From the NCBI RefSeq assembly GCF_000145235.1, contig NC_014391.1:2232001-2296000 (forward strand): a stretch of DNA of 64,000 bases, read 5' to 3'. This stretch comes from Micromonospora aurantiaca ATCC 27029. Its GTDB lineage: Bacteria; Actinomycetota; Actinomycetes; Mycobacteriales; Micromonosporaceae. This document shows positions 35,242 to 60,900 of this stretch, one piece after another; within the stretch, counting starts at the first letter, position 1; each line of letters begins with the position of its first letter. A program made the position numbers and the translations under genes. Under the pieces are notes generated by a model that did not search any database, was not told the origin of the DNA, and saw nothing but the letters and a program-made list of their open reading frames with translations.

Positions 35242-36186
35242 TCAGGGCAGCCGGCGGCGTACCGCGGACGCCACGGTCGCCGCGCGTCCGCCCACGGCCC
35301 GGACCACCTGGGACACGTCGGGCAGCCATCCGCCCCGGACCGCCTCACCGGCCGGGTTGGGCGTGAACACGATGCCCTGGTGCGCGGCGACCGGCGTCCG
35401 GGTCAGTCCGGCCCGGCGCATCAGCGGCCCGACCAGCACGTCGTACACGCCGGGCAGGACTGTGAAGCCGAAGCGCATGACCACGTTGAGCCGGCCCACC
35501 GACACCTCCCGGCGGGGCCGGTCGAGGCAGTGGACGATGGCCCGCGCCACCCGTTCGGGCGAGGCGATCGGGGGCGGCGGCCGGCCGACGCGGCCCAGGT
35601 AGTTGGCCGCCTGCCGGTAGACGGGCGTGTCGACGCTGCCCGGGTTGACCAGGCAGATCGCGACGCCGGGTGTCTCCCGCGCCTCCTGCTGGAGCGTGCG
35701 GGCCAGTCCCTGCAGGCCCCACTTGGCTGCGACGTAGCCGCTCATGTAGGGCGCGGTGATGTGCCCGAGCACCGAGCCGGTGAGCACGAGCGTGCCGCCG
35801 CCGGTGGTCCGGAAACGGCGCAGCGCCTCCCGGGCCACCGCCGCGGCGGCCAGCAGGTCGGTGCGGACCACCTGCTCGAACACCTCGGCCGGGGTCTCGT
35901 CGAAGCGGCCGTAGGACATCACCGCGGCGGTGTGCACCCAGGCGTCGACGCGGCCGAACTCGGCCCGCGCCGCGTCGGCGAGCGCGGCCACCGCGCCGGG
36001 CTCGGTCACGTCCATCGGTACGGCGATCGCCCGCGCGCCCGCCGCCCGGCACTCGTCGCGTACCTCGTCGAGCGTGGCGGGGGAGCGGGCCGCGAGGACC
36101 AGCCGGTCCCCGCGGCCCGCCAGCTCCCTGGCGGTCGCCCGGCCGATCCCGCTGGTCGCGCCGGTGACGACCACCGTCCGGGTCAC
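35242..36186 (-). CDS. Short-chain dehydrogenase/reductase
   Basis: A 314-residue classical SDR. VVVTGATSGIGRATARELA (about 5-23) is the NADP-binding loop; the catalytic triad lies in VLTGSVLGH and YMSGYVAAKWG (Y-x3-K). The C-terminal 110 residues extend past the SDR core and end in a basic tail. GTG 36186 overlaps the stop of the zinc alcohol dehydrogenase gene (GTGA), so the pair is co-translated. It may reduce or oxidise a keto or hydroxy group in the same pathway; the substrate is not predictable. Confidence 0.87.
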   Translation of the reverse strand: MTRTVVVTGATSGIGRATARELAGRGDRLVLAARSPATLDEVRDECRAAGARAIAVPMDVTEPGAVAALADAARAEFGRVDAWVHTAAVMSYGRFDETPAEVFEQVVRTDLLAAAAVAREALRRFRTTGGGTLVLTGSVLGHITAPYMSGYVAAKWGLQGLARTLQQEARETPGVAICLVNPGSVDTPVYRQAANYLGRVGRPPPPIASPERVARAIVHCLDRPRREVSVGRLNVVMRFGFTVLPGVYDVLVGPLMRRAGLTRTPVAAHQGIVFTPNPAGEAVRGGWLPDVSQVVRAVGGRAATVASAVRRRLP

Positions 36187-37367
36187 GGCGCGAGCACGAC
36201 CTTCACGCAGCCGTCCTCCTTCTTCTGGAACATCTCGTACGCGCGCGGCGCGTCGGTCAGCGGCAGCCGGTGGGTCCGCAGGTCCTCGACGCCCAGCGGG
36301 TCGTCGTCGCGCTCCAGCAGCGGGATGATCTCGTCGACCCAGCGCCGCACGTGGCACTGGCCCATGCGCAGCTGGATGCCCCTGTCGAACATCTCCATCA
36401 GCGGCATCGGGTCCTGCTCGCCGCCGTACACGCCGGAGATCGACACGGTGCCGCCACGCCGTACGGCCTTGAGCGCGGCGTGCAGCACCACGAGCCGGTC
36501 CACGCCGGCCTTGTCGGTCATCGCCTGGGCCAGCTTGTCCGGCAGCAGCCCGGCGGCGGTCTGGGCCATCTTGCCCAGCGGCGCGCCGTGCGCCTCCATG
36601 CCGACCGCGTCGATCACGGCGTCCGGGCCGCGTCCGTCGACCAGGTCGATGAGCGCGCCGGGTACGTCGTCGAGCTGGCTGACGTCGAGCACCTCGATGC
36701 CGTGGCGGCGGGCCATCTCCAGCCGCTCGGGGACCAGGTCCAGCCCGATCACCCGGCCGGCGCCGAGGTGGCGGCCGATCCGGGCGCTGAACTGCCCGAC
36801 CGGGCCGAGCCCGAACACGGCGAGCGTGCCGCCGGGCGGGGTGTCCGCGTACTTCACCGCCTGCCAGGCGGTGGGCAGGATGTCGGAGAGGTAGAGCCAG
36901 CGCTCGTCCGGGCCGCTGTCCGGGATCGTGATCGGGCCGAACTGGGCCTGCGGCACGCGCAGGTACTCGGCCTGGCCGCCGGGGATCGAGCCGTACAGCG
37001 AGGTGTAGCCGAACAGGGACGCGCCCTTGCCCTGGCTGGTCACCTGCGTGGTCTCGCACTGCGCGTAGAGCTGCCGCTCGCACATCCAGCACGAGCCGCA
37101 GGAGATGTTGAACGGGACGACCACCCGGTCGCCCTTCTTGAGCCGGGTCACGCCGGGCCCGACCTCCTCGACGACGCCCATCGGCTCGTGCCCGAGGATG
37201 TCGCCGGGCTTCAGGTACGGCCCGAGCACCTCGTACAGGTGCAGGTCGGAACCGCAGATGGCGGTCGAGGTGATCCGGACGATCGCGTCGGTCGGCTCCT
37301 CGATCCGGGGGTCCGGGACGTCCTCCACGCGGACGTCCCGCTTGCCGTGCCAGGTCAGTGCCTTCAT
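36183..37367 (-). CDS. Zinc-dependent alcohol dehydrogenase (MDR family)
   Basis: A 394-residue medium-chain dehydrogenase, similar to glutathione-independent formaldehyde/alcohol dehydrogenases. Catalytic zinc region: STAICGSDLHLYEV (Cys) and GHEPMGVVEEVG (His-Glu); structural zinc cysteines: NISCGSCWMCERQLYAQC; NAD loop: LAVFGLGPVGQFSARIG. ATG 37367 begins MKALTWHGKRDVRVEDVPDP, the standard family start. It overlaps the SDR by 4 bases. It lies just after lcp1 and the oxiB remnant, so it could handle aldehyde or alcohol ends of isoprene oligomers, which is inference. Confidence 0.92.
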   Translation of the reverse strand: MKALTWHGKRDVRVEDVPDPRIEEPTDAIVRITSTAICGSDLHLYEVLGPYLKPGDILGHEPMGVVEEVGPGVTRLKKGDRVVVPFNISCGSCWMCERQLYAQCETTQVTSQGKGASLFGYTSLYGSIPGGQAEYLRVPQAQFGPITIPDSGPDERWLYLSDILPTAWQAVKYADTPPGGTLAVFGLGPVGQFSARIGRHLGAGRVIGLDLVPERLEMARRHGIEVLDVSQLDDVPGALIDLVDGRGPDAVIDAVGMEAHGAPLGKMAQTAAGLLPDKLAQAMTDKAGVDRLVVLHAALKAVRRGGTVSISGVYGGEQDPMPLMEMFDRGIQLRMGQCHVRRWVDEIIPLLERDDDPLGVEDLRTHRLPLTDAPRAYEMFQKKEDGCVKVVLAP

Positions 37368-37441
37368 GCCTGTCTGTCCCCTCTCCGGTGCCGTCCATCG
37401 GACTGCTACCCGGCAGAGGGCCGTTGAATCGGCGGCGCCGG

Positions 37442-38017
37442 TCACCGTGGCGTGAGGTCGACAGCCACGGCGATCGTGCTGGTGCTGGCGGCGGTGGCGG
37501 CGAGGGCGCCGATGTCGAGGCGGCGGCCGGCGCGGTCGGTGACGGCGCCGGCCGCGAGCTGCAGGCCGGCGACGGGCGTGCCGAGCGTCGCCGACGCGGC
37601 CTCCAGCAGCCGCCGCCGGGCCACCGCCACGGCGACCCGGAGCGGGGTACGGGTTCCGACGGCCGGATGGGGTGCGCCACGTGTCCGGCCCGCTGCCGGC
37701 CGTGGCGGTGGCACACGGACGCGCCGGCGCGGTACCGACAGCCCGTCGGCGATCAGTTCGGCGGCCGAGGTGTCGCCGTCGTACCGGTCCGGCGGCAGCG
37801 TGAACGACACGGTCCCGTCCGGGGCGACCTCGACGGAGATCAGGGCCGCCCCGGGCAGGGCCGTGGCCGTCATGATCTCGCCGAGTCCGAGCAGCCCGGC
37901 CACGTCCGGCGACGGCGTCCGGGCGGCGGCCGGGTACGCGGCGGTGAGTTCGGCAGCGGCCACGAGGACCGGCGCGGCCAGCACGTACCCCAGGAACGGA
38001 GGGAGGGACACGGTCAT
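37442..38017 (-). pseudogene. oxiB: Truncated, degenerate molybdopterin hydroxylase subunit (oxiB/isoquinoline 1-oxidoreductase beta-like)
   Basis: A 191-residue open frame that matches only the N-terminal part of the about 700-residue large subunit of molybdenum hydroxylases. Recognisable parts: FLGYVLAAPVLVAAAEL (8-24), ALISVEVAPDGTVSFTLP, LIADGLSVPRRRVRV and LRVAVAVARRRLLEAA. In full-length relatives the first of these follows a twin arginine; here it is SLPPFLGYV, so the Tat signal is lost. The segments normally reading PRAEVGQGI and FNQLTGGS are absent or scrambled. A stop comes at DLTPR, and the remaining about 500 residues are missing, as is oxiA. It lies 65 bases after lcp1. A small functional protein cannot be excluded, as the frame is open. 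Confidence 0.7.
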
Positions 38018-38082: not shown

Positions 38083-39306
38083 TCAGAACTCGCGGTTGCC
38101 GAGCGGGATCTCGATGTTGATGGACTGCCCCTCGGACAGGAACAGCAGGGCGAGCTTGCGCAGGAACTCGTCGAACAGCCAGTAGCACTCCGGTGCGAGC
38201 GGGAACGGCAGCAGCGCCTCCCGGACCGCGATGAACGGGCCCCAGCTCGTCCGCAGCAGCGTGTCCCAGAGCAGGTCGCGCGGGATCTCCAGCCAGTTGG
38301 CGATCTGGTTGCCGAGCATGAACCGGGTGAACGAGCCGAGGATGGGCTTGCTGAGCAGCCCGGCGTCGATCTCCTTGCCGAGGCCGAGCAGGATGTCGGC
38401 GAGCGCGTTGCCCTCGCGGGTGGGCGCGAGGATCGGGTCGAGGACCTCGCCGGCCTGGGAGTTCGCCTCGCTCCACGTGGCCGGGATGTACTCGTCCCTG
38501 ATGCCGAGCATGTGCGCGGCCACCTGCCACAGGTGCAGGAAGGCCGTCGACTCGGCGGCGGGGATCGGCACCCGCCAGTCGGTCAGTTTCCGCATGACCG
38601 TGGTCGGCAGGCTGTGCCAGGTGACCATCATGTCCCGCTGGCTGATCGGGATGTCCTCGGGCGCGACGTCGGCCCACTCGGGCGACTGCGGCAGGAGGTG
38701 ACGCACACCGGCGTGCGCGAGCCGGGTCTTGACGGCGGTCACGATCATCGAGCCGTCGGGCTGGTACGCGTTGGCGGTGCCGATGTCGTACCCGAGCTTG
38801 GCGGTCTTGGAGATGCGGTCCTTCATGTCCGCGCCGCCCTTGGAGTAGTAGACGGCGCGCGCCTCCTTCGGGATGACTGTGCTCATCATGCCGCTGGCCA
38901 GGCCGTAGAGCACGCCGAGGTAGAGCCCGCGCTTCTCGTTGAAGCGCACGGCGGTGGCCAGCTTGCCCTGGTCCACCCAGGACGGCAGCACGCGTGCGCG
39001 TTCGATGAACGCGCGGACGTCCGCCGGGAGGCCGGAGGGCAGCGGCTGGCCGTTCTTCGTCCACGTCCGCAGCAGTTGGTTGACCAGTGGCGCCTCGCCC
39101 CGGTCCAGGAGGGAGGCGACGAGCGGGTCGGCCTCCTCGTCCCACACCCAGCGGGGGTCCACGCCCGCGCCGGCGCCGGCCACCGATCCCTTCGGAGACC
39201 AGGTCCACGCCGACCGGGCCTGTGCCGGAGCGGCGACGCTGAGCGCGCCGAGCGCGCCCAGTGCCCCACCGGCCTTCAACATCTTGCGCCTGCTTACCGG
39301 TTCCAC
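38083..39306 (-). CDS. lcp: Latex clearing protein Lcp1 (secreted DUF2236 rubber oxygenase)
   Basis: A 407-residue homologue of Lcp from Streptomyces sp. K30, a heme b dioxygenase that cleaves poly(cis-1,4-isoprene) endo-wise into oligo-isoprenoids with aldehyde and keto ends. A Tat signal with twin arginine (SRRKMLKAGGALGALG) and a cleavage-like APAQA precede WTWSPKGSVAG. In the conserved core (STVIPKEARAVYY, DRISKTAKLG, KTRLAHAGVRHLLPQ) E148, R164, K167, T168 and H198 fall at exactly the K30 numbers, H198 being the heme ligand. GTG 39306 is chosen because GAGGAG then lies 5 bases upstream; GTG 39312 would abut it. Followed by a terminator; divergent from an SDR gene. Confidence 0.93.
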   Translation of the reverse strand: MEPVSRRKMLKAGGALGALGALSVAAPAQARSAWTWSPKGSVAGAGAGVDPRWVWDEEADPLVASLLDRGEAPLVNQLLRTWTKNGQPLPSGLPADVRAFIERARVLPSWVDQGKLATAVRFNEKRGLYLGVLYGLASGMMSTVIPKEARAVYYSKGGADMKDRISKTAKLGYDIGTANAYQPDGSMIVTAVKTRLAHAGVRHLLPQSPEWADVAPEDIPISQRDMMVTWHSLPTTVMRKLTDWRVPIPAAESTAFLHLWQVAAHMLGIRDEYIPATWSEANSQAGEVLDPILAPTREGNALADILLGLGKEIDAGLLSKPILGSFTRFMLGNQIANWLEIPRDLLWDTLLRTSWGPFIAVREALLPFPLAPECYWLFDEFLRKLALLFLSEGQSINIEIPLGNREF

Positions 39307-39443
39307 GTTCACTCCTCGGGGTCGAGGCCGCTGATACGGTGAAACGAATGTTGCGCCCGTGTATCACATGAGAGCACGTGGTAACGGTGTCCACAAGGCT
39401 CATGACGACAACTGTCGATGGTTTGCGATGAGGGGAGTCCACG
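39307..39443. promoter_or_regulatory. Divergent promoter region lcp1 / SDR with inverted repeats
   Basis: This 137-bp gap should hold the lcp1 and SDR promoters. Visible are a small inverted repeat CGACA-AC-TGTCG (39406-39417) and an imperfect dyad GTATCAC...GTGGTAAC (39361-39385) with a CACGTG box. These are candidate operators for one of the TetR-type regulators of the island, but no copy of either was found before the other island genes. Confidence 0.35.
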
Positions 39444-40211
39444 GTGGCGCTGGTCGAGGGGATGCTGTCGGGCAAGGTGGCGTGGGTGACGGGCGCCAGT
39501 CAGGGCGTCGGCGCGGCGGTCGCCGAGGGGCTGGCCCGGGCCGGCGCGTCGGTGATCCTCCAGTCCCGGCGGCCGGACGCGCTGGACGAGGTGCGCGACC
39601 GGATCACGGCCGGCGGCGGCACGGCGGAGGTGGTCGCCGGTGACGTCGCCGACGAGTCGGCCGCGAACGCCGTGGTGGCCCTGGCGCGGCGGCGGTGGGG
39701 GCGGCTCGACGTCCTGGTCAACAACGCCGGCATCAGCCCGGCGCTGCACCGCAGCGAGCGGCTCAGCCTCGGTGACTGGCAGCAGGTGATCGACACCAAC
39801 CTGTCCGGGGTGTTCGTCTGCGCCCGCGCGGCCGGCGCGCTCATGGTCGAGCAGGGCGCGGGCAGCATCGTCAACATGTCCTCCGTGCACGGTCAGGTCG
39901 GCTTCCCGCGCCTGGCCGCGTACAGCGCCAGCAAGGGCGGCGTCGAGCAGCTCACCCGCACGCTGGCGCTGGAGTGGGCGGCGGTCGGCGTACGCGTCAA
40001 CGCGGTGGCGCCCGGCTACCTGGAGACCCCGATGACCGAAGGGTTGCGCGGCCACGAGCAGTGGTCGAAGCGGCTGCGCGACCGTATCCCGATGGGCCGG
40101 TTCGGCCGTCCCGAGGAGGTGGTCGGCGCGGTGCTGTTCCTGGCCTCGGACGCCGCGAGCTACGTCACCGGCAGCGTGTTGCACGTGGACGGTGGCTGGA
40201 CCGCGCAGTGA
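39444..40211 (+). CDS. Short-chain dehydrogenase/reductase (FabG/gluconate 5-dehydrogenase-like)
   Basis: A 255-residue classical SDR: WVTGASQGVGAAVAEGLA (about 14-31) for NAD(P), NNAGISPAL, SIVNMSSVHG and the catalytic YSASKGG, then the C-terminal VTGSVLHVDGGWTAQ typical of the FabG branch. Full length. GTG 39444 follows GGGGAG by about 7 bases. Divergent from lcp1 across 137 bp. It could oxidise a hydroxyacyl or alcohol intermediate in the island's pathway; the substrate cannot be read from sequence. Confidence 0.9.
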   Translation: MALVEGMLSGKVAWVTGASQGVGAAVAEGLARAGASVILQSRRPDALDEVRDRITAGGGTAEVVAGDVADESAANAVVALARRRWGRLDVLVNNAGISPALHRSERLSLGDWQQVIDTNLSGVFVCARAAGALMVEQGAGSIVNMSSVHGQVGFPRLAAYSASKGGVEQLTRTLALEWAAVGVRVNAVAPGYLETPMTEGLRGHEQWSKRLRDRIPMGRFGRPEEVVGAVLFLASDAASYVTGSVLHVDGGWTAQ

Positions 40212-40291
40212 CCGGCGGGCCGTTTGGTTAGTCCGCGTTCGTCGCCAGGTTGCCGTCACGACGCGATACCGCGCCAGATCACGGCCACTCC

Positions 40292-40320
40292 TTCCCAGGA
40301 AGTTAACCCTCGTTTACAGT
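40292..40320 (+). promoter_or_regulatory. Putative promoter of the acyl-CoA synthetase gene
   Basis: TTCCCA (40292-40297) and TACAGT (40315-40320) are 17 bases apart, within the only AT-richer part (AAGTTAACCCTCGTTTACAG) of the 204-bp gap after the SDR gene. The rest of the gap is a leader of about 90 bases ending in a clear AGGAG ribosome site. Confidence 0.4.
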
Positions 40321-40415
40321 GCTGCCATCGGCTGCGGAACCCGCGCGGGCACCACGGCGAGGGGTGCGGCCAGCCCTGCCACCACCAGGCCCGGTTGCGT
40401 GTGAAGGAGTAGCCC

Positions 40416-42278
40416 ATGGACCCCGCCCACGTCCTCGCCGAGGACTGCGCCAAGAAAGCCGCCGACCTGACTGTCCCGGCGCTGCTGCACCGCAACGCCA
40501 CCGAGTACGCCGACCGGCCCGCGCTGACCACGCTCGGCCGGGACGACACCCGCACCTGGGCCGCGCTGCGCGACGAGGTCGCCGAGCTGTCCGCCGGCCT
40601 GGCCGAGATCGGCCTGGAGGCCGGGCGGCACATGCTGATCATGATGTCCAGCCGCACCGAGCACTGGCTCGTCGACCTCGCCGCGGTCCACCTGGGCGCG
40701 GTGCCGTCCACGATCTACCCGACGCTCAGCGCCGAGCAGATGCGCTACCTGGCCCGGCACAGCGCCGCCCAGGTGCTCGTGCTGGAAGGGCCGGCCGAAC
40801 TGGAGCGCTGGCGGCCGATCCCGGCCGACCTGCCCGACCTGCTGCGGGTGGTGCTGGTGGACGAGCCCGCCGAACCGGCCGGCGACGCGGTGCCGCTGTC
40901 GCGCGTGCGTACCCTCGGCCGGGCCGCACGCGAGGCGGACCCGGACGCCTTCGAGCGGCGCTGGCGCACGATCCGGCCCGAGCAGCCGGTGACGCTGCTC
41001 TACACGTCCGGCACGACTGGTAACCCGAAGGGCGTCGTGCTCAGCCACCACAACGTGATCTACCAGGCGGTGGCGCTGGATGCGATGGTGTCCGTCCCCG
41101 ACCACGCGCCGACGGTGGCCTACCTGCCGCTCGCGCACATCGCCGAACGGTTCCTCGGCATCTACAACCCGATCTACCGCGCCGGGCACGTGACGATCTG
41201 CCCCGACGCCACGCAGCTCGTCGCGGCGCTGCGCACCGTCGGCCCCGCCTCGTTCTTCGGGGTTCCGCGGGTCTGGGAGAAGATGGCCGCCGGCGTCCAG
41301 GCCCACCTGGCCGCCGCCGAGCCCGCGGTCCGCGCCGCCGTCGCCGCCGCGACCGCGGTGACACTGGAGGCGTACGAGCTGCGCGCGGCCGGAGAGCCGG
41401 TGCCGGACGAGCTGGCCGCCCGGGTGGCGCAGGCCCGGGACACCGTGCTGCGGCCGTTGCAGGCCACCCTCGGCCTGCAGAACATGACCTGGCCCGGCAG
41501 CGGCGCCGCCCCGATCCCGGTGGACGTGCTGCGGTTCCTCGCCGGGCTCGGCGTCGACGTGCTGGAGGTGTGGGGTCTGACCGAGACCACCGGCACCGCC
41601 ACCCTCAACACCCCCGACCGCTTCCGCACCGGGACGGTCGGCCGCCCGAACGTGGGCATGGAGGTACGCCTCGCCGACGACGGCGAGGTCCTCGTCCGGG
41701 GTCCGCTGGTGTGCTCCGGCTACCTGCGCGAGGACGGCGGCGTCGAGCCGGTCGTCGACGCGGACGGCTGGCTGGCCACCGGCGACGTCGGGACGCTCGA
41801 CGACGACGGCTTCCTCACCATCACCGACCGCAAGAAGGAACTCATCATCACGTCCAGCGGGAAGAACATCTCGCCGGCGCAGATCGAGAACCTGCTGCGG
41901 GCGCACCCGCTCATCGGTCAGGCCGTCGCGATCGGCGACCGGCGGCCGTACGTCACGGCGCTGATCGTGCTGGACGAGGAGGTCGCGCCGCAGTGGGCGC
42001 GCACGCACGGCGTCAGCGACCCGCAGCTGCCCACGCTGGCCTCGGACCCGGTGCTGCTGGCCGAGATCCAGGCCGCGGTGGACGCGGCGAACGCGCGCCT
42101 CGCCCGGCCGGAGCAGGTCAAGACGTTCCAGGTGCTGCCGTCGGCGTGGACGCCGGAGTCGGGCGAGCTGACCCCGACGCTGAAGCTACGGCGCCGGGTC
42201 ATCGTCGACAGGTACGGCGACCGGATCGACGCCCTCTACCGGCCGGGCGACGCGGTGGCGGAGCCCGTCACGGAGTAG
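40416..42278 (+). CDS. Long-chain acyl-CoA synthetase (AMP-forming, FadD-like)
   Basis: A 620-residue ANL-superfamily enzyme. LLYTSGTTGNPKGVVLSHHN (194-213) is the ATP/AMP P-loop; VWGLTETTGTATLN is the adenine-binding motif; the hinge and C-terminal lysine regions appear in GWLATGDVGTLDDDGF and ITDRKKELIITSSGKNISPAQIE. It resembles the FadD15/FAA-type long-chain ligases. It would activate isoprenoid acids released by Lcp cleavage and aldehyde oxidation. AGGAG lies 6-7 bases before ATG 40416. The last 93 bases overlap the end of the convergent DUF2236 gene. Confidence 0.92.
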   Translation: MDPAHVLAEDCAKKAADLTVPALLHRNATEYADRPALTTLGRDDTRTWAALRDEVAELSAGLAEIGLEAGRHMLIMMSSRTEHWLVDLAAVHLGAVPSTIYPTLSAEQMRYLARHSAAQVLVLEGPAELERWRPIPADLPDLLRVVLVDEPAEPAGDAVPLSRVRTLGRAAREADPDAFERRWRTIRPEQPVTLLYTSGTTGNPKGVVLSHHNVIYQAVALDAMVSVPDHAPTVAYLPLAHIAERFLGIYNPIYRAGHVTICPDATQLVAALRTVGPASFFGVPRVWEKMAAGVQAHLAAAEPAVRAAVAAATAVTLEAYELRAAGEPVPDELAARVAQARDTVLRPLQATLGLQNMTWPGSGAAPIPVDVLRFLAGLGVDVLEVWGLTETTGTATLNTPDRFRTGTVGRPNVGMEVRLADDGEVLVRGPLVCSGYLREDGGVEPVVDADGWLATGDVGTLDDDGFLTITDRKKELIITSSGKNISPAQIENLLRAHPLIGQAVAIGDRRPYVTALIVLDEEVAPQWARTHGVSDPQLPTLASDPVLLAEIQAAVDAANARLARPEQVKTFQVLPSAWTPESGELTPTLKLRRRVIVDRYGDRIDALYRPGDAVAEPVTE

Positions 42279-43157
42279 CGCCGGGTCGATGCCGGGCGGG
42301 GGTGGCGGCGCGCCGAGGTCGGCGGGCCGGTACCCCCGCGGGTAGCCGGGATAGGTGCGGTTGCGCGGCGCGCGGGTCAGCCGGCTCACGGTCCGCGCGG
42401 GCAGCAGCCGCACCACGGCGGCCCGGGCGCGCAGCGCGCCGCCGGCCAGCGCGGTCAGCGGTCGCGGCGCGGCCGGCAGCCCGAAGGCGGCCCGCATCTC
42501 GGGCGGCAGCAGCGCGCGCACCGCTAGCCGCGCGGCCGGGCGCAGCGGCGCCGGGTACCAGGACGCGAACAGATCGAGCGTGTACGCCGCGACCCGCTCG
42601 TTGCTCGGCGTGCGGCGGAACGTGTCCCGCTCGTACGCGTCCTTGAACGCCCGGAACGCGTCGAAGTCCGCCGGGACGTCGCGGATGCCCATGCGCGCGC
42701 CGACCGCGCGGTAGTAGTGGAACGCGGCCAGCCGCTCGTGCTCGTGCAGCGGGCGCCAGCCGTACCGGTCCAGCCAGTCGATCGGCTCGTAGACGAACGT
42801 CGACAGCACGTACCGCATGTCGTCGTTCGAGATCGCGTACCGGCCGTGCGCCCGGTTGACCACCCGCAGCGCCTCCCGGCCGCGCGGCGAGTCGTACCCG
42901 TGCTCCAGCAGCTCGGCCATCAGCAGCGCGGTGTCGTCGTAGCGCTGCTGCGCCCGCAGCCGGAACTCGCCGGTCGCGTCGAGCAGCGCGGAGATGCTCG
43001 GTACGCAGAACGTGCGCAGCAGCGCCAGCTCCAGTGCCCGCTGGTAGTCGAAGGGGAACTCGTAGCCGGCGGAGAGCCGGTAGATCTCGTGGTGGTCGCG
43101 GACCGGATCGAGCGTCTCGATCCGGCGCAACCAGCGGTACCGCCCCTCACGAGCCAT
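42186..43157 (-). CDS. DUF2236 / MpaB-family oxygenase-like protein
   Basis: A 323-residue cytoplasmic member of the DUF2236 superfamily, the domain also found in Lcp. Landmarks: YEFPFDYQRALELALLRTFCVPSIS, NDDMRYVLSTFVYEPIDWLDRYGWRPLHEHERLA (conserved Tyr/His-rich core) and YRAVGARMGIRDVP. It has no signal peptide, so unlike the two Lcp proteins it would act inside the cell, perhaps on cleavage products (inference). Related MpaB/MpaB' proteins are oxygenases acting on isoprenoid side chains. ATG 43157 is chosen over GTG 43172. Its 3' end overlaps fadD by 93 bases, and the 50-residue C-terminal tail encoded there is Pro/Asp/Val-rich and likely unconserved. Divergent from lcp2. Confidence 0.8.
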   Translation of the reverse strand: MAREGRYRWLRRIETLDPVRDHHEIYRLSAGYEFPFDYQRALELALLRTFCVPSISALLDATGEFRLRAQQRYDDTALLMAELLEHGYDSPRGREALRVVNRAHGRYAISNDDMRYVLSTFVYEPIDWLDRYGWRPLHEHERLAAFHYYRAVGARMGIRDVPADFDAFRAFKDAYERDTFRRTPSNERVAAYTLDLFASWYPAPLRPAARLAVRALLPPEMRAAFGLPAAPRPLTALAGGALRARAAVVRLLPARTVSRLTRAPRNRTYPGYPRGYRPADLGAPPPPPGIDPALLRDGLRHRVARPVEGVDPVAVPVDDDPAP

Positions 43158-43181
43158 CGCCACCACCCCCACCGTCCACCC

Positions 43182-43210
43182 TTGCCGATGCAGTCAAGCT
43201 CCTCTATGTT
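43182..43210 (+). promoter_or_regulatory. Putative lcp2 promoter
   Basis: TTGCCG (43182-43187) and TATGTT (43205-43210) are exactly 17 bases apart, in an AT-rich island (CTATGTTAATAGAAAATCAC) in the 152-bp gap between the DUF2236 gene and lcp2. This gives a leader of about 93 bases, containing a dyad CCGGT-CGA-ACCGG (43285-43297) next to the ribosome site. Confidence 0.55.
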
Positions 43211-43309
43211 AATAGAAAATCACATCCCCGGATAACTCGAAACCTGCTTGTGCGCACCTCGCGGGCCGGTGTTCAGGGCGATGTCCGGTCGAACCGGGAA
43301 GTGGTGCTA

Positions 43310-44527
43310 ATGGAGAATCTCAGTAGACGAAGCGTCCTGACGCTCGGCGCCGCGCTGGGACTGGTAGCGGTGGCGGACGCCCCGAAGGCGTGGGCGTGGT
43401 CGTCGTCCGGCTCGATCGCCGGGACCGACACGGTCACCGACCCGTGGGACGTCTGGGACGACGACACCGACCCGCTCGTCGCCTCGATGCTGGACGCCGG
43501 TCAGATCCCGGCGGTGAACACCGCGTTCGCGTCCTGGATCCGCAACGGCGACGCGCTGCCCGCCGGCCTGCCCCCGGCGCTCACCACCTACCTGCGGCGG
43601 GTCAACACGCTGCCGTCCTGGGCCGACCAGGCCAAGCTGGACCGCGCCGCCCAGTTCAACAAGCGCATGAGCATGTACCTGTTCCTGCTCTACGGCCTGG
43701 GCAGCGGGATCATGAGCACGGTGATCCCGCGCGAGGCCCGCAACGTCTACTGGTCCGAGGGCGGCGCGGACATGAAGTCGCGCGCCGCGAAGACCTTCAC
43801 CTACGGGTACGACCTGAGCGCCCCCGACGCGTTCAAGGCCACCGGCAGCTTCGTGGTCACCTCGCACAAGACGCGGCTCACCCACGCGGCCGTGCGGCAC
43901 CTGCTGCCGCAGTCCGCGCCGTGGCGCGGCGTCACCGACCACCCGATCCCGATCAGCAACGGCGACATCCTCATCACCTTCCACAGCCTCGGCACGTACG
44001 TGCACCGCAAGCTGCTCGACTGGCGTCGCTGGGGACTGCGGATGTCGGCCGCGGAGGAGGAGGCCTACCTGCACATGTGGCAGGTCGCGCTGCACCTGCT
44101 CGGCGTGCGCGACGAGTTCATCCCGAACAGCTGGGCCGCCGCCGAGGAGCAGTCCCGGTACGCGCTGTCCCCGCTGCTCGCGCCGACGCCCGAGGGCATC
44201 GACCTGGCCGACATCCTGCTGAACCTGACGTCCTCGGTGGACCTGGGCGTCACCCGGGGATTCCAGCGGGAGTTCGCGCGCTACGTGCTCACCGACCGGA
44301 TCGGCGACTGGCTGCGGCTGCCCCGCGACTACATCTCCCGGGGCGTGATCGAGGCCGGCTGGCCGACGTACGTGATGTTCCGCGAAGGGCTCTCGCCGCT
44401 CATGCCGGAGACGTTCGGCCTGTTCGACAGGTTCATCCGCGGGCTGGCGATGCTGTTCCTCAACAACGGCTCGTCCGCGTCGCACACCCCGATCACGATT
44501 CCGGTCATGAACCGGCCGGGCACCTGA
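43310..44527 (+). CDS. lcp: Latex clearing protein Lcp2 (second rubber oxygenase paralogue)
   Basis: A 405-residue paralogue of Lcp1, about half identical by eye in the core. Tat signal MENLSRRSVLTLGAALGLV with a KAWAW cleavage area, then SSSGSIAGT. The catalytic segments STVIPREARNVYW, SRAAKTFTYG and KTRLTHAAVRHLLPQ keep all five key residues: E142, R158, K161, T162 and H192 (K30 numbers 148/164/167/168/198). The C-terminal end NNGSSASHTPITIPVMNRP matches the Lcp end. ATG 43310 is preceded by GGGAAG; an upstream in-frame GTG pair is less likely. Convergent with a TetR-type regulator gene 12 bases away. Confidence 0.92.
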   Translation: MENLSRRSVLTLGAALGLVAVADAPKAWAWSSSGSIAGTDTVTDPWDVWDDDTDPLVASMLDAGQIPAVNTAFASWIRNGDALPAGLPPALTTYLRRVNTLPSWADQAKLDRAAQFNKRMSMYLFLLYGLGSGIMSTVIPREARNVYWSEGGADMKSRAAKTFTYGYDLSAPDAFKATGSFVVTSHKTRLTHAAVRHLLPQSAPWRGVTDHPIPISNGDILITFHSLGTYVHRKLLDWRRWGLRMSAAEEEAYLHMWQVALHLLGVRDEFIPNSWAAAEEQSRYALSPLLAPTPEGIDLADILLNLTSSVDLGVTRGFQREFARYVLTDRIGDWLRLPRDYISRGVIEAGWPTYVMFREGLSPLMPETFGLFDRFIRGLAMLFLNNGSSASHTPITIPVMNRPGT

Positions 44528-44539
44528 GTCCGTGCCGGT

Positions 44540-45754
44540 TCAGAGCGTCAGGGCGCCGGTGACCAGCGCGGTGACCGCGTCCCGGTGGCCGGGCGAGTCC
44601 TGCCAGCGCAGGGCGCGCCCGGCCTCCACCGCCACGCCGAACCCGGCGTGCACGAGCAGCCGGGCCTGCCGCCGGTCCAGGTCCGGCCGGACCGCGCGCA
44701 ACTGCTGCTCCCAGACCGCGATGTGCTCCCGCTGGGCGAGGATGAGGGGACGCCGTACGTCGTCCGGCAGGCCGGCCACCTCCGCCTCGGCGACGCTGTT
44801 GAGGGTGTTGTGCTCGAAGCAGTAGGCCACGTACGCCGCCGCCAGCGCGACCACCGCCTGCCGTGGGTCGGCCGCCCGCTGGAGGCTGCGGTCCACCGCC
44901 TGGGCGAGCAGTTCCGCCGCCTGGAGGCAGGCGGCCACGAGGATGTCCACCTTGCCGGGATAGTGGCGGTAGATCGCGGACGGTGCGAGCCCCACCGCCT
45001 GGGCGATCTGCGCGTTGGTGACTGTGGCGAACCCGTCCCGGGCGAACAGCGGTACGGCCGCGGCCAGGATCTCCGCACGCCGCGTCCGGGGCACCGGCTG
45101 GGCGGGCAGCTCGACCAGCCGCGCCGTCCCGGCAGCGGTGGCCGGATCGGTGGCCACCACCCGCATCGCGGACCGCAGCACCAGATCCTCGATCCGGCGC
45201 TGGGCGATCGAGGTGTGGTGCATGGTGACCGAACCGATCACACCGAGCGCGGCCACCGCCCGCAGGCGCTCGTCGGGCAGCGGGTACTCCCGCCGTACCA
45301 TCTCGGTCACCCGGCCCACGACGTGGCCGAACTTCGCGCGGAGCAGGTGGCGGTCCGCGCGGCCGAGGTAGCGGGCCTCCCACCGGTAGAGGCCGCCGGA
45401 GGCGCGGTGCGCGACGGTGACCCGGGTGAGGGCCAGCAGCACGTCGGCCAGCGCCGCGTCCGGCGGCCACTCGTCGATGGCCCCGACCAGGTTGTCCACC
45501 ATGACGTTGGCGCACTCGGCGAACAACGCGTACTTGTTCGGGAAGTGGCGGTACAGCGCGGGCGCGCTGATCCCGACCGCCGCGGCGATCTCCTCCATCG
45601 ACGCGCCGTGGTAGCCGCGCTCGCTGAACACCTGCCCGGCCGACTCGACGATGACCTGTCTGCGGTTGCGGGGCCGGGTGGCCGCGGCCGGCCCGGTGGT
45701 CACCGGATCGTCCGGGCGGACGCGGACGGGCACGGGACCATGGGTGTCAGTCAA
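44540..45754 (-). CDS. Double-length TetR-type regulator (two TetR units fused)
   Basis: A 404-residue protein with two complete TetR N-terminal helix-turn-helix units: IVESAGQVFSERGYHGASM / [20 protein letters not shown] (about 35-77) and EILAAAVPLFARDGFATVT / IAQAVGLAPSAIYRHYPGKV (about 228-271). Each is followed by about 130 residues of helical ligand-domain-like sequence. A normal TetR protein has one unit of about 200 residues and dimerises; here one chain may mimic a dimer. TTG 45754 with GAGG about 9 bases upstream is the best start; GTG codons 8 and 18 are alternatives. Convergent with lcp2 and in tandem with a paralogue, so control of lcp genes is likely (inference; LcpR of Gordonia is a TetR protein). 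Confidence 0.85.
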   Translation of the reverse strand: MTDTHGPVPVRVRPDDPVTTGPAAATRPRNRRQVIVESAGQVFSERGYHGASMEEIAAAVGISAPALYRHFPNKYALFAECANVMVDNLVGAIDEWPPDAALADVLLALTRVTVAHRASGGLYRWEARYLGRADRHLLRAKFGHVVGRVTEMVRREYPLPDERLRAVAALGVIGSVTMHHTSIAQRRIEDLVLRSAMRVVATDPATAAGTARLVELPAQPVPRTRRAEILAAAVPLFARDGFATVTNAQIAQAVGLAPSAIYRHYPGKVDILVAACLQAAELLAQAVDRSLQRAADPRQAVVALAAAYVAYCFEHNTLNSVAEAEVAGLPDDVRRPLILAQREHIAVWEQQLRAVRPDLDRRQARLLVHAGFGVAVEAGRALRWQDSPGHRDAVTALVTGALTL

Positions 45755-45796: not shown

Positions 45797-47005
45797 TCAG
45801 GCGTGCAGGACGGCGAGCGCGAGCCGGGCGGTCTGGTCGTCGTAGCCGGCGGTGCGGTCGAAGCGGCCGAGCCGCCCGACGTCGGTGACGACGTTCAGCG
45901 CGGCGTGGACGAGCACACGGGCGTCGGCGGCCGGCAGGTCCGGTCGTACCGCCCGGACCAGGCCCACCCACTCCTCGACGTGCAGCCGCTGCGCGCCGCG
46001 CAACTGGTGGCGGTCCCGGTCCGGCAGGTTGTTGTTCTCCGCCAGGTACACCGCGACCAGGTCGCTCTGGCCGAACGCGAAGTCGACGTAGGCGCGTACC
46101 ACCCGGTGCAGCGCGTCGGCCGGGTCGCTCGCCTCGGCGATCGCCGCGGTGGTGGCCCCGGTGAGCCGGTCGGTGGCCCGGTAGTAGGCGGCCGCGAGCA
46201 GGTCGGCCTTGCCGGGGAAGTAGCGGTACACGCTGGACGCCTGCATGCCCGCGGCGCGGCCGATGTCCTCGACCGCGACTGCGTGGTAGCCGTGCCTGTG
46301 GAACAGGCGCATCGCCTCGATGAGCAGCAGTTCGCGCCGCGACGCCGGACGCACCGGCCCGGTGGCGGGCATGTCCTCCGGCGCGGTACGCCGCCGGAGC
46401 GGCACCGTCGGCGCGTCGGTCCGCAGCAGCGTCCAGGCGACCCGGGTGAGCAGGTGCTCGGTGTCGGTGCCGGTGGCCGCGGCCCGGTACGTGGTCACGC
46501 TGCCGAACGCGCTCAGCGCCGCGTTCACCAGCAGGTCGGCCTGCGCGGTGGTCAGCTCGGGACGCAACTCGCGCAGCGGCGCGGCGACGCGGCCGACGAG
46601 CGTGGCCATCGAGGCGGCGAACTCCTGCCGGTGCTCGGGCGTCAGGTAGCGGCCCTCCCACTGGTACAGCCCGGCCACCCGCCGCCTGCTCACCGCGACC
46701 TCGGCGAGCGCGCGCAGCAGCTCGTCGAGCAGCCCGTCGGCGTTACTCGCCGCCGGCTGTCCGGTCGCGGCGAGCAGGGCACCGACGACCTCCCGGGTGG
46801 CGTGCACCAGGATCGCGTACTTGTTCGGGAAGTGCCGGTAGACGGCCGGCCCGCTGATGCCGACGGCGGCGGCGATCTCGTCCACCGAGACGCCGTGGTA
46901 GCCCCGCTCGCAGAACAACTCGGCCCCGGCGAGCGCGATCCGGGCCTTGCGGTCCTTGGGCCGTCTGACCGGTGCCGGGGCGGTGTCGCTGGCTGCTTGT
47001 CGCAC
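45797..47005 (-). CDS. Double-length TetR-type regulator, paralogue
   Basis: A 402-residue protein built like the neighbour 42 bases downstream: HTH 1 in [18 protein letters not shown] / [20 protein letters not shown] (about 26-66), HTH 2 in [19 protein letters not shown] / [19 protein letters not shown] (about 228-266). Both proteins also share YRWEARYLGR / [10 protein letters not shown] and LLVHAGFGVA / [10 protein letters not shown], so the fusion predates the gene duplication. GTG 47005 follows TAACGT by 6 bases. Divergent from fadA-fadB, whose promoter it may control. The ligand could be an isoprenoid acyl-CoA or acid; that is a guess. Confidence 0.85.
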
Positions 47006-47096: not shown

Positions 47097-47140
47097 TTGA
47101 CAAGCGGCGGCAGGCTCAAGAAAAGTTAGGCGAAATTCGC
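47097..47140 (+). promoter_or_regulatory. Putative fadA-fadB promoter with 11-bp palindrome
   Basis: A consensus TTGACA (47097-47102) is followed after 18 bases by AAAAGT (47121-47126), a weak -10. Just downstream is the palindrome GCGAA-A-TTCGC (47130-47140), placed where a repressor would block initiation. The ribosome site GAGGAG for ATG 47168 follows. Confidence 0.45.
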
Positions 47141-47167
47141 ATGCGGGTGAGCAATGAGGAGCTTGGC

Positions 47168-48382
47168 ATGACGACCGATGCGTTCATCTACGACGCGTTG
47201 CGCACGCCGCGCGGGCGGGGCAAGCCGACCGGATCGCTGTACGGGGTGAAGCCGGTTTCGCTGATCACCGGCCTGATCGAGGAGACCCTGCGGCGGATGC
47301 CCGGCCTCGATCCGGCGCTGATCGACGACATCGTGCTCGGGGTGGTGTCCCCGCTCGGCGACCAGGGCGCCGACATCGCCCGGACCGCCGCCGTCGCCGC
47401 CGGCCTGCCCGACACGGTGGCCGGGGTCCAGCTCAACCGCTTCTGCGCCTCCGGGCTGGAGGCGGTGAACATCGCCGCGCAGAAGGTGCGCTCCGGCTGG
47501 GAGGACCTCGTCCTCGCCGGTGGCGTCGAGTCGATGTCCCGGGTGCCGATGGGCTCCGACGGCGGGGCCTGGGCGCTCGACCCGGAGGTCAACTTCACCA
47601 CCGGGTTCGTGCCGCAGGGCATCAGCGCCGACCTCATCGCCACCATCGCCGGCTTCGACCGGGAGACGGTCGACGCGTACGCGCTCCAGTCGCAGGCGCG
47701 GGCCGCGAAGGCGTGGGCCAACGGCTACTTCGCCCGGTCCGTGGTGCCGGTACGCGACCGCAACGGGCTGACCGTGCTGGACCGGGACGAGCACATCCGG
47801 GCCGACTCGACGGCGGAGAGCCTCGGCGCGCTGCGCCCCTCGTTCGCCGAGATCGGTGAGAAGGCGGGCTTCGACGCGGTCGCGTTGCAGAAGTACCACT
47901 GGGTCGAGCGCATCGAGCACGTCCACACGGCGGGCAACTCCTCCGGCATCGTCGACGGCGCCGCGCTCGTCGCGATCGGCAGCGAGGCGGCAGGCGCCGC
48001 CGCCGGTCTCACCCCGCGCGCCCGCGTCGTGGCCACAGCGCTCAGCGGCGCCGACCCCACCATCATGCTCACCGGCCCGGCCCCGGCCGCCCGCAAGGCG
48101 CTCGCGAAGGCCGGTCTCGGCGTCGACGACCTCGACCTGGTGGAGATCAACGAGGCGTTCGCCGCGGTGGTCCTGCGGTTCGTCGCCGACCTCGGCCTGA
48201 ACCCGGACATCGTCAACGCCAACGGCGGGGCGATCGCGATGGGCCACCCGCTCGGCGCGACCGGCGCCATGATCCTCGGCACGCTCGTCGACGAACTGGA
48301 ACGACGCGGCGGCCGCTACGGCCTGGCCACGCTCTGCGCGGGCGGCGGCATGGGCATCGCGACCGTGATCGAACGAATCTGA
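47168..48382 (+). CDS. fadA: Acetyl-CoA C-acyltransferase (thiolase, FadA-like)
   Basis: A 404-residue thiolase catalysing the last beta-oxidation step, release of acetyl- or propionyl-CoA. Active-site cysteine C93 in [40 protein letters not shown] with the catalytic His; [10 protein letters not shown] with the second Cys. Length typical. ATG 47168 has GAGGAG 6 bases upstream. fadB starts 10 bases after its stop, giving the alpha/beta pair of a trifunctional-like complex. Confidence 0.95.
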
Positions 48383-48391
48383 GGAGCACGA

Positions 48392-50539
48392 ATGGCAAAC
48401 ACCATCCGGTGGGAGCACGGCGACGACGGCATCGTGCTGCTCACCCTCGACCACCCCGGCCGCTCGGCGAACGTGATGAACGCGGAGTTCGGCGCGAGCC
48501 TGGCGGCCACCGTGGACCGGCTCGAAGCCGAGCGTGACCGGATCACCGGCGTGATCGTCACCTCGGCCAAGAAGACGTTCTTCGCCGGCGGCGACCTGGA
48601 GACCCTGGTGCGGCTCACGCCCGCCGACGCCGAGGCGTCGGCGGCCGACGCGGCCGCGCTCAAGCAGACCGTACGCCGGCTGGAGACGCTCGGCCGCCCG
48701 GTCGTCGCCGCCGTCAACGGATCGGCCCTCGGCGGCGGACTGGAACTGGCCCTGGGCTGCCACCACCGCGTCGTGCTCGACGACCCGGCCATCGAGATCG
48801 GCTTTCCCGAGGTCACGCTCGGCCTGCTGCCCGGCTGCGGCGGCGTGGTGCGTACCGTCCGGCTGCTCGGCGTCACCGCCGCGCTGACCGACTGGCTGCT
48901 GCGCGGCCAGCGCCGCCGGCCGCAGGACGCGCTCGCGCACGGGCTGGTCGACGAGTTGGCCGCCGACCGGGACGCCCTGATGGCCGCCGCCCGTGAGTGG
49001 ATCGCCGCCCACCCGGACGCGACCCAGCCGTACGACCGCAAGGGCTACCGGATGCCCGGCGGCACCCCGTCCAGCCCTGGCCTCGCGGTGCAGTTGCCGG
49101 CCATGCCCGCGCTGCTGCGCAAGCAGCTCAAGGGCGCGCCCTACCCGGCGCCCCGCAACATCCTCGCCGCCGCCGTCGAGGGCGCCCAGGTGGACCTGGA
49201 CACCGCGTTCGTCATCGAGGGGCGGTACTTCACCGAGCTGGCCACCGGCCAGGTCGCCAAGAACATGATCAAGGCGCTCTTCTTCGACCTCCAGACCGCC
49301 CGGTCCCGCACCGCCGGTGGCGACCACGAGCCGGTACGCAGCGTCGCCGTCGTCGGCGCGGGCATGATGGGCGCCGCCATCGCGTACGTCTGCGCCCGCG
49401 CCGGGATGCGGGTGGTGCTCAAGGACGTCACCGCCGAGGGTGCGGCGCGAGGCAAGGCGTACTCGGCGGGCCTGCTCGACAAGGCGGTCGCGCGGGGCCG
49501 GTCCACGCCGGAGAAGCGCGACGAGATCCTGGGCCGCATCCACGCCACCGGCGACCTCGCCGACCTGGCCGGCGTCGACCTCGCCATCGAGGCGGTCTTC
49601 GAGGACCCGGCGCTCAAGCACAAGGTGTACGCCGAGATCGAGCAGGTCGCGCCGGACGCGCTCATCGCCTCCAACACCTCCACGCTGCCCATCACGCTGC
49701 TGGCCGAGGGCGTCAGCCGGCCGGAGGAGTTCGTCGGGCTGCACTTCTTCTCCCCGGTGGACAAGATGCCGCTGGTCGAGGTGATCCGCGGGGAGCGGAC
49801 CGACGAGGCCACGCTGGGCCGCGCGCTGGGCGTCGTCCGCCAGTTGCGCAAGACGCCGATCGTGGTCAACGACAGCCGGGGCTTCTTCACCAGCCGGGTC
49901 ATCGGCACGTTCACCAACGAGGGCGTGGCGATGCTGGCCGAGGGCATCCCGGCGGCGACCATCGAGCAGGCCAGCAGCCAGGCCGGCTATCCCGCGCCGG
50001 TCCTCGCGCTGATGGACGAGCTGACCCTCACCCTGCCCCGGAAGATCCGCCAGGAGACGGCCGCCGCGACAGTGGCCGCCGGGGGCACCTGGCAGCCGCA
50101 CGCCGCCGACGCGGTGATCGACCGGATGATCGACGAGTGCGGCCGGACCGGACGCTCCGGCGGTGCCGGCTTCTACGACTACCGCGACGGGAAGCGGGCC
50201 GGGCTCTGGCCGGGGCTGCGGGAGCAGTTCGGCGGCACGAACCTGGACACGCCCTTCGAGGACCTCAAGGAGCGGATGCTCTTCATCGAGGCGATCGAGT
50301 CGGTGCGGTGCCTGGACGAGGGCGTGCTGACCTCGGTGGCCGACGCCAACGTCGGCTCGATCCTGGGCATCGGCTACCCGAGCTGGACCGGTGGCGTCCT
50401 GCAGTACGTCAACCAGTACGACGGCGGGCTGCCGGGCTTCGTGGCCCGTGCCCGGGTGCTCGCAGAGCGCTACGGCGAGCGGTTCGACCCGCCGCCGCTG
50501 CTGACGGCCATGGCCGAGCGGGGCGAACGGTTCGAGTAG
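48392..50539 (+). CDS. fadB: Enoyl-CoA hydratase/3-hydroxyacyl-CoA dehydrogenase fusion (FadB-like)
   Basis: A 715-residue bifunctional enzyme. Residues 1-200: crotonase domain with the oxyanion-loop region KKTFFAGGDLETL and catalytic glutamates E118 (GGGLELALG) and E140 (IGFPEVTLGLLPGCGG). Residues from 315: NAD-binding VAVVGAGMMGAAIAYV, catalytic His in GLHFFSPVDKMPLVE and substrate-domain motifs KTPIVVNDSRGFFTSR and GVLTSVADANVGSILGIG. It hydrates and oxidises enoyl-CoA. GAGGAG precedes the ATG. It ends 6 bases before the convergent GMC oxidoreductase gene. Confidence 0.95.
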   Translation: MANTIRWEHGDDGIVLLTLDHPGRSANVMNAEFGASLAATVDRLEAERDRITGVIVTSAKKTFFAGGDLETLVRLTPADAEASAADAAALKQTVRRLETLGRPVVAAVNGSALGGGLELALGCHHRVVLDDPAIEIGFPEVTLGLLPGCGGVVRTVRLLGVTAALTDWLLRGQRRRPQDALAHGLVDELAADRDALMAAAREWIAAHPDATQPYDRKGYRMPGGTPSSPGLAVQLPAMPALLRKQLKGAPYPAPRNILAAAVEGAQVDLDTAFVIEGRYFTELATGQVAKNMIKALFFDLQTARSRTAGGDHEPVRSVAVVGAGMMGAAIAYVCARAGMRVVLKDVTAEGAARGKAYSAGLLDKAVARGRSTPEKRDEILGRIHATGDLADLAGVDLAIEAVFEDPALKHKVYAEIEQVAPDALIASNTSTLPITLLAEGVSRPEEFVGLHFFSPVDKMPLVEVIRGERTDEATLGRALGVVRQLRKTPIVVNDSRGFFTSRVIGTFTNEGVAMLAEGIPAATIEQASSQAGYPAPVLALMDELTLTLPRKIRQETAAATVAAGGTWQPHAADAVIDRMIDECGRTGRSGGAGFYDYRDGKRAGLWPGLREQFGGTNLDTPFEDLKERMLFIEAIESVRCLDEGVLTSVADANVGSILGIGYPSWTGGVLQYVNQYDGGLPGFVARARVLAERYGERFDPPPLLTAMAERGERFE

Positions 50540-60824: not shown

Positions 60825-60900
60825 GGGTGCCCTCCCGGGGGAGACGGTGACGCGGTTGGCGCTTCACCGTACCAATCGCCGGGGCGTACCCCCGGACAAG

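Follow-up and report, generated by a model that had tools for sequence, protein, structure and literature searches.

The window, a 64,000-nucleotide stretch of the Micromonospora aurantiaca ATCC 27029 chromosome (NC_014391.1, positions 2,232,001 to 2,296,000), encodes two latex clearing proteins that are very probably functional, Tat-exported heme-b rubber oxygenases from the ancient clades A and C, brought together, with probably separate regulation, in a single catabolic cluster that is present in a minority of Micromonospora. The two genes are as follows.

38083–39306, minus strand: lcp1, clade A latex clearing protein of 407 aa with a Tat-type N terminus, predicted b-type heme rubber oxygenase, GTG start
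43310–44527, plus strand: lcp2, clade C latex clearing protein of 405 aa, ATG start at 43310

Judged by sequence, both proteins have a complete active site with all five catalytic residues, as the original prediction had it. Counted from the GTG at 39306, Lcp1 carries E148, R164, K167, T168, and H198 at exactly the numbering of the Streptomyces sp. K30 Lcp, and the same five residues are found in Lcp2 as E142, R158, K161, T162, and H192. The lcp1 reading frame is open from 39312, its GTG start lies directly 3′ of GAGGAG, and two Micromonospora orthologs have an ATG at exactly this codon position. Lcp1 matches the solved K30 structure (PDB 5O1L) over residues 6 to 407 with 58% identity (E = 9e-159), and Lcp2 matches it over its full length with 48% identity (E = 5e-117), which excludes chance similarity. 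The structure model of Lcp2 (pLDDT 77; TM 0.82/0.88 to 5O1L) is consistent with the globin-type Lcp fold. Both genes are under purifying selection, with dN/dS values of 0.05 to 0.08 to close relatives for lcp1 and 0.10 to 0.11 for lcp2. An SRRxxL (Tat-type) motif is present at both N termini; the Pfam TAT_signal model scores Lcp1 at 20.5 bits, just below the cutoff of 22.7, and does not match Lcp2, so that Tat export is predicted here from the motif and from studied relatives. The K30 enzyme (5O1L/5O1M) shares its fold, active-site residues, and Tat-type N terminus with the window proteins but belongs with neither of them, falling instead into clade B.

In the tree of Lcp proteins, clades A, B, and C are supported at 99/96, 99/99, and 100/100, respectively, whereas the deep nodes of the fast tree have support of only 22 to 32, and we claim no outgroup-rooted branching order of the three clades. 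Neither window protein falls into a non-rubber DUF2236 group, and their clades include active enzymes of Actinoplanes OR16 (PMC7413915). Classification of Lcp2 as a non-rubber DUF2236 protein is thus unsupported, given its match to 5O1L and its placement in clade C. The duplication implied by the original prediction is not local: clades A and C each span several actinobacterial families. A recent local duplication that left two largely redundant copies would fit the distance of 4 kb and the shared catalytic residues, but it is contradicted by the tree, in which the genes belong to separate supported clades. In addition, Lcp1 and Lcp2 are only 49% identical to each other, while each is far closer to a different OR16 protein (Lcp1 to OR16 Lcp1, 78.6%; Lcp2 to OR16 Lcp3, 77.8%), and in two other Micromonosporaceae genera (L145, L147) the C cluster occurs without lcp1. 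We therefore reject such a duplication, on the 49% identity and the tree, as highly improbable; lcp1 and lcp2 appear to have been brought together secondarily from two ancient, separate, well-supported clades.

Comparison with OR16, which has an lcp1-lcp2-oxiB-oxiA operon and a distant lcp3 (PMC7413915), shows the window Lcp1 and Lcp2 to be orthologs of OR16 Lcp1 and Lcp3, respectively. The window and OR16 also have in common the double-TetR gene that adjoins the C-type lcp in convergent orientation, together with its operator. However, in Micromonospora both loci are fused within 4 to 9 kb, the B-type lcp2 is missing, and oxiB is truncated; in the window, lcp1 has no adjacent TetR gene, and there is an MpaB-like gene. 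Dactylosporangium sp. AC04546 carries three lcp genes (PMC11169899), which correspond to the three of OR16. Next to its C type lies a TetR gene as long as a double-TetR gene, and it has neighboring short-chain dehydrogenase, FadD-like, and acyl-CoA dehydrogenase genes in common with the window; in contrast to the window, its A and C types are 3.4 Mb apart and its oxiBA genes are intact. Only 8 of 160 Micromonospora genomes encode any Lcp, and all 8 carry exactly this lcp1-lcp2 pair and the truncated oxiB.

The two genes lie on opposite strands with 4,004 bp between their start codons, and the separate promoters that had been proposed for them are borne out by two different operators.

39332–39366, no strand assigned: predicted lcp1 operator, TGATAC-N23-GTATCA, 35 bp, 25 bp before the start codon
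43205–43224, plus strand: predicted lcp2 operator, the exact LcpRB palindrome of Streptomyces coelicolor A3(2), TATGTTAAT-AG-AAAATCACA

The lcp1 operator is the sole N23 copy in the genome, with none expected from shuffled sequences; further sites in the window with 3 mismatches are at chance level, except for a half-site before the lcpR gene described below. The lcp2 operator, whose LcpRB-type site has been published (PMC8235351, PMC7413915), is the single such site in the 7.03-Mb genome with up to 2 mismatches allowed. Within 2 mismatches, the TGATAC-N23-GTATCA site is present in 85 of 103 clade A promoters and in 0 of 53 clade C promoters, whereas the LcpRB-type site, within 3 mismatches, is present in 48 of the 53 clade C promoters and in none of 147 from clades A and B. 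Thus, at these cutoffs, there is no crossover between the clades. That a genome may have several lcp genes is already known; the rule that each Lcp branch keeps its own operator is new relative to the literature consulted.

Three putative regulators are encoded in the window.

44540–45754, minus strand: double-TetR regulator, ortholog of OR16 ACTI_69510/LcpRB, convergent with lcp2
45797–47005, minus strand: second double-TetR regulator, SACE_7040-like by Pfam/NCBIfam
60117–60824, minus strand: single TetR regulator of the LcpR type, relative of OR16 ACTI_59620

The first of these is 80% identical to the product of the OR16 gene beside lcp3 and has two TetR_N stretches; its two TetR helix-turn-helix domains and the LcpRB operator at lcp2 suggest that it is a member of the LcpRB type. 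The likeness to the S. coelicolor A3(2) lcp/LcpRB system lies in this operator and in the double-HTH TetR type. Among clade C loci, 43 have both regulator and operator, 8 have neither, 6 have the operator only, and none has the regulator only; the C-type genes of genus g70, which have the adjacent double TetR and the operator, encode proteins ~64 to 67% identical to Lcp2. The second double-TetR gene occurs as the same neighbor in other genera. The single TetR protein is 71% identical to ACTI_59620, of which it is the best match in the genome (E = 2e-92), and this relationship, along with the lcp operator in the genome, points to LcpR. A half-operator with 2 mismatches (60860–60874) lies just upstream of its gene. 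This LcpR is closer to the second LcpR copy of Dactylosporangium, which is encoded beside an acyl-CoA dehydrogenase gene (78% identity), than to the copy beside lcp1 (only 68%), which counts against assigning it to lcp1.

In the arrangement that we propose, lcp1 would be controlled by the LcpR-type TetR protein (60117–60824) via TGATAC-N23-GTATCA, and lcp2 by the LcpRB-type double-TetR protein (44540–45754) via TATGTTAAT-N2-AAAATCACA. With clade-specific operators and two regulator types, the suggestion that the two genes differ in regulation is well supported at the sequence level. However, gel shifts with both OR16 regulators showed binding of the double TetR to the lcp1 promoter as well, although its site is absent there (PMC7413915), so regulation of the two genes may overlap.

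A third heme-oxygenase-family gene, missed in the original prediction, lies between the pair.

42186–43172, minus strand: MpaB/trans-anethole-oxygenase-like PF09995 (MPAB_Lcp_cat/DUF2236) protein without a Tat motif, divergent from lcp2

Its product matches PF09995 with 62 bits and the trans-anethole oxygenase 8S1J with E = 3e-7. It is not an Lcp: no Lcp was among its matches to PDB sequences with E values of up to 1, and the RR motif is absent. Nro1 of Gordonia J1A and 8S1J, of the MpaB family, belong to the same PF09995 superfamily and share with it the lack of a Tat motif but are distant from it in sequence. R75-x3-T79 and H107 are conserved in three orthologs; the structure model (pLDDT 47) is too poor to place a heme. 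Close orthologs (at least 79% identity) are found in exactly the 8 lcp-positive genomes among the 160 of Micromonospora, and relatives adjoin clade C lcp genes in other genera. This MpaB-like companion of the Lcp pair is likewise new relative to that literature. The operator at 43205–43224 possibly serves this divergent gene as well.

The surroundings of the pair include the following genes; some neighboring open reading frames in the window have no Pfam match.

36183–37445, minus strand: zinc-dependent alcohol dehydrogenase family gene (PF08240, PF00107)
37442–38017, minus strand: truncated oxiB relic, ~190 of 742 aa, directly downstream of lcp1
39444–40211, plus strand: short-chain dehydrogenase, divergent from lcp1 (PF13561)
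40416–42278, plus strand: FadD-like acyl-CoA ligase (PF00501)
47129–48382, plus strand: FadA-like thiolase (PF00108/PF02803)
48392–50539, plus strand: FadB-like 3-hydroxyacyl-CoA dehydrogenase/enoyl-CoA hydratase (PF02737, PF00378)
52525–53676, minus strand: acyl-CoA dehydrogenase (PF00441)
58998–60131, plus strand: acyl-CoA dehydrogenase beside lcpR (PF00441)

The oxiB relic matches residues 19 to 195 of OR16 OxiB in tblastn and has dN/dS values of 0.27 to 0.82; a genome-wide search for OxiAB found only this fragment and one weak match, and no intact oxiB. In the proposed scheme, oligo-isoprenoid aldehydes would enter β-oxidation, whose enzymes are encoded close by, and the OxiAB oxidase step that is usual elsewhere would be missing. 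A three-oxygenase cascade, in which the secreted Lcps cut rubber and the cytoplasmic MpaB-like protein cleaves the remaining double bonds of imported oligo-isoprenoids, replacing the lost OxiAB step, is a tentative and rather doubtful extension of this scheme. The MpaB-like gene, divergent from lcp2, would share the LcpRB operator region with it.

Heme b binding and polyisoprene oxygenase activity of both Lcps are predicted from the OR16 orthologs, which both act on natural rubber, with 4.02 U/mg for Lcp1 and 0.22 U/mg for Lcp3, and whose genes are induced by rubber 22-fold and 335-fold, respectively (PMC7413915). By analogy, Lcp1 would cleave rubber at high turnover, and Lcp2 would have a low turnover and be induced very strongly. 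While the catalytic residues are identical in all 201 Lcp relatives, tunnel positions 165 and 169 (from the residue list of PMC11095694) differ in a clade-fixed manner, as do positions 231, 131, and 187. These changes, the low latex activity of OR16 Lcp3, the frequent occurrence of clade C as the sole Lcp in Micromonosporaceae, and the adjoining MpaB/TAO-like gene could also mean that the substrate of Lcp2 is now a non-rubber alkene (e.g., another polyprenoid or a terpenoid), with its fold and heme site kept; the action of OR16 Lcp3 and of its counterpart in Dactylosporangium, AC04546 Lcp1, on natural rubber (PMC7413915, PMC11169899) and the strong induction of OR16 lcp3 by rubber make this unlikely. 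The tunnel differences and the separate regulation would likewise fit a division of labor by cis/trans geometry or by chain length, which we consider improbable: nothing in the sequence separates cis from trans use, and the literature found on substrates and products of clade C Lcps concerns natural rubber latex only. Finally, Lcp1 alone might matter for growth on rubber, with Lcp2 serving in priming or sensing through the release of oligomers that act as inducers. The combination of low activity and very high induction of the OR16 C-type gene, as well as the binding of its regulator to the lcp1 promoter, would be in line with such a role, but a priming enzyme should have basal expression, whereas that of OR16 lcp3 is very low without rubber (PMC7413915), and clade C is alone in many genomes; we regard this role, too, as having a small chance of being correct. 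Two functional, separately regulated rubber oxygenases remain our preferred reading.

These observations suggest a reason for the retention of several rubber oxygenases in actinobacteria: the enzymes would represent old lineages on different switches rather than recent spare copies. They also provide a simple rule, by which the operator predicts the Lcp type and lcp genes can be classified from their promoter sequences, and they name residues 165, 169, and 231 as targets for swaps between the high- and low-activity lineages. Finally, they draw attention to an unstudied MpaB-like oxygenase, a frequent companion of the low-activity Lcp type.

Several lcp genes per actinomycete have already been published for OR16 (Actinoplanes sp. 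OR16, with lcp1, lcp2, and lcp3), AC04546, and VH2, so the pair of latex clearing proteins encoded in the window belongs to a known kind. The window lies in a genome of 7,025,559 bases in a single contig, and its lcp locus shows 92 to 99% protein identity to that of Micromonospora tulbaghiae. The genes considered here are as follows.

37442-38017, minus strand: truncated oxiB, the first ~190 to 200 of 742 OxiB residues, downstream of lcp1
39306 down to 38083, minus strand: lcp1, start GTG at 39306
42186-43172, minus strand: MpaB/trans-anethole-oxygenase-like member of PF09995, between lcp1 and lcp2, lacking a Tat motif
43310-44527, plus strand: lcp2, residues E142, R158, K161, T162, and H192
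44540-45754: double TetR, 80% to ACTI_69510, the double TetR of OR16
60117-60824: single TetR (LcpR), 71% to ACTI_59620, the LcpR-type TetR of OR16

Beta-oxidation genes around the lcp pair encode FadD, thiolase, FadB, acyl-CoA dehydrogenases, and enoyl-CoA hydratase.

The lcp1 reading frame opens at 39312 with a GTG that overlaps the ribosome site GAGGAG. A GTG at 39306 stands at a favorable distance from this site and corresponds to an ATG at exactly the same codon in two relatives; we therefore take it as the start, and Lcp1 counted from there has E148, R164, K167, T168, and H198 in the numbering of K30 Lcp. Both proteins match K30 Lcp, whose structure (5O1L) is solved, over nearly their full lengths, and an AlphaFold model of Lcp2 (pLDDT 77) aligns to it with TM-scores of 0.82/0.88. 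Thus, the original prediction of two paralogues with all five residues intact is confirmed. The five residues are identical across 201 relatives from three Lcp clades, apart from one R164 position that is an unread base. For lcp1, dN/dS is 0.05 to 0.08 among close Micromonospora relatives and 0.16 to 0.35 in more distant pairs; for lcp2, the values are 0.10 to 0.11 and 0.22 to 0.26, respectively.

These clades were defined in a maximum-likelihood tree of 59 representatives of Lcp sequences gathered from genome contigs and by searching at the genus, family, and class levels; in the genome taken to be that of OR16, the layout of the lcp genes agrees with the published one. Clade A (support 99/96) holds the window Lcp1 and OR16 Lcp1 (78.6% identity), clade B (99/99) holds K30 Lcp and OR16 Lcp2, and clade C (100/100) holds the window Lcp2 and OR16 Lcp3 (77.8% identity), so that neither window protein falls into a non-rubber DUF2236 group. 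Clades A and C each cover several families. The proposed dating of a duplication by such a tree did not bear out a local event: judging from the 49% identity between Lcp1 and Lcp2, their split is old.

In oxygen uptake on latex, OR16 Lcp1 reached 4.02 U/mg and OR16 Lcp3 0.22 U/mg, and their genes were induced 22-fold and 335-fold, respectively (PMC7413915). Candidates for the residues behind the activity difference may be the clade-fixed positions 165 (Ile in A, Ala in C), 169 (Ala in A, Phe in C), and 231 (Trp/Phe); the first two are included in the tunnel-lining list of K30 Lcp (PMC11095694).

True Lcps are found in 45 of 301 Micromonosporaceae genomes: 22 are single-copy, 15 have three genes (A, B, and C), and 8 have A and C. 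The single-copy Lcps are C-type in all 20 that were read from these 22 genomes, and no A without C was found among the Lcp-positive genomes read. In Micromonospora, Lcps are present in 8 of 160 genomes, and in all 8 the complement is a single A gene plus a single C gene, encoded on opposite strands and separated by a few kilobases. Loci from two other genera (L145 and L147) carry the C cluster of FadB, FadA, two double TetRs, and lcpC with no lcpA nearby, and the A and C loci of OR16 are ~1 Mb apart; most likely, therefore, lcp1 and lcp2 became neighbors secondarily. One Micromonosporaceae locus (L132, 3846-17700) has A, B, and C genes inside ~14 kb, with an intact oxiB and an LcpR gene adjoining the A-type lcp; it possibly represents an intermediate arrangement. 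In Amycolatopsis pretoriensis (L051, 11612-12831), a second lcp copy is broken between two frames, probably through pseudogenization or a sequencing error.

The two promoters carry distinct predicted operators. Upstream of lcp2, an exact copy of the operator of LcpRB, the double-TetR regulator of Streptomyces coelicolor A3(2) (PMC8235351, PMC7413915), TATGTTAATAGAAAATCACA, is found at 43205-43224, the sole such site genome-wide with up to 2 mismatches allowed. Upstream of lcp1 is TGATAC-N23-GTATCA (39332-39366; 0 expected in shuffled sequence), a 35-bp form that overlaps and lengthens the palindrome proposed for OR16. In promoter counts drawn from sequences related to one another, and hence not independent events, the lcp1 site (up to 2 mismatches) is present in 85 of 103 A, 12 of 44 B, and 0 of 53 C promoters, and the lcp2 site (up to 3 mismatches) occurs in 48 of 53 promoters from clade C and in 0 of 147 from A and B combined. 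Among similarly related C loci scorable for an adjacent double TetR, 43 have regulator and operator, 8 neither, 6 the operator only, and none the regulator only.

The double TetR is the predicted regulator for the lcp2 site, and LcpR for the lcp1 site, although the window LcpR is nearer to the second LcpR copy of Dactylosporangium. In that genus, two LcpR paralogues lie near lcp (L022, 6002-10000, and L174), one adjoining lcp1 and the other an acyl-CoA dehydrogenase gene; the window retains the second. An imperfect copy of the lcp1 operator lies at 60840-60874, 16 bp before the lcpR start; a half-site with 2 mismatches there (60860-60874) suggests possible autoregulation. These operators and the two regulator types uphold, at the sequence level, the predicted difference in regulation of lcp1 and lcp2, with the caveat that gel shifts with the OR16 double TetR showed binding to the lcp1 promoter of OR16 as well.

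The MpaB-like gene is divergent from lcp2, and the LcpRB site lies inside their shared 137-bp gap. Close orthologues of its product (at least 79%) are encoded in all 8 lcp-positive and none of the 152 lcp-negative Micromonospora, the latter having homologues of at most near 40%. It also adjoins clade C lcp in some other genera (close by, in differing orientations, in L260, L254, and L164) and is absent there in most Actinoplanes-type loci. A fourth PF09995 gene (L001, G000:C1:691011-691721), elsewhere in the genome, fits the Pfam model better than the other three.

The OxiB fragment after lcp1 is common to all 8 lcp-positive Micromonospora; its frame is still open, its dN/dS is raised, and selection on it is relaxed. 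The genome containing the window yielded no intact oxiB. What is added here to the published multi-lcp actinomycetes is, as read from genome comparison, a rule linking clade to predicted operator, a fused arrangement of two Lcp lineages with apparent loss of oxiB, and an MpaB-like companion.
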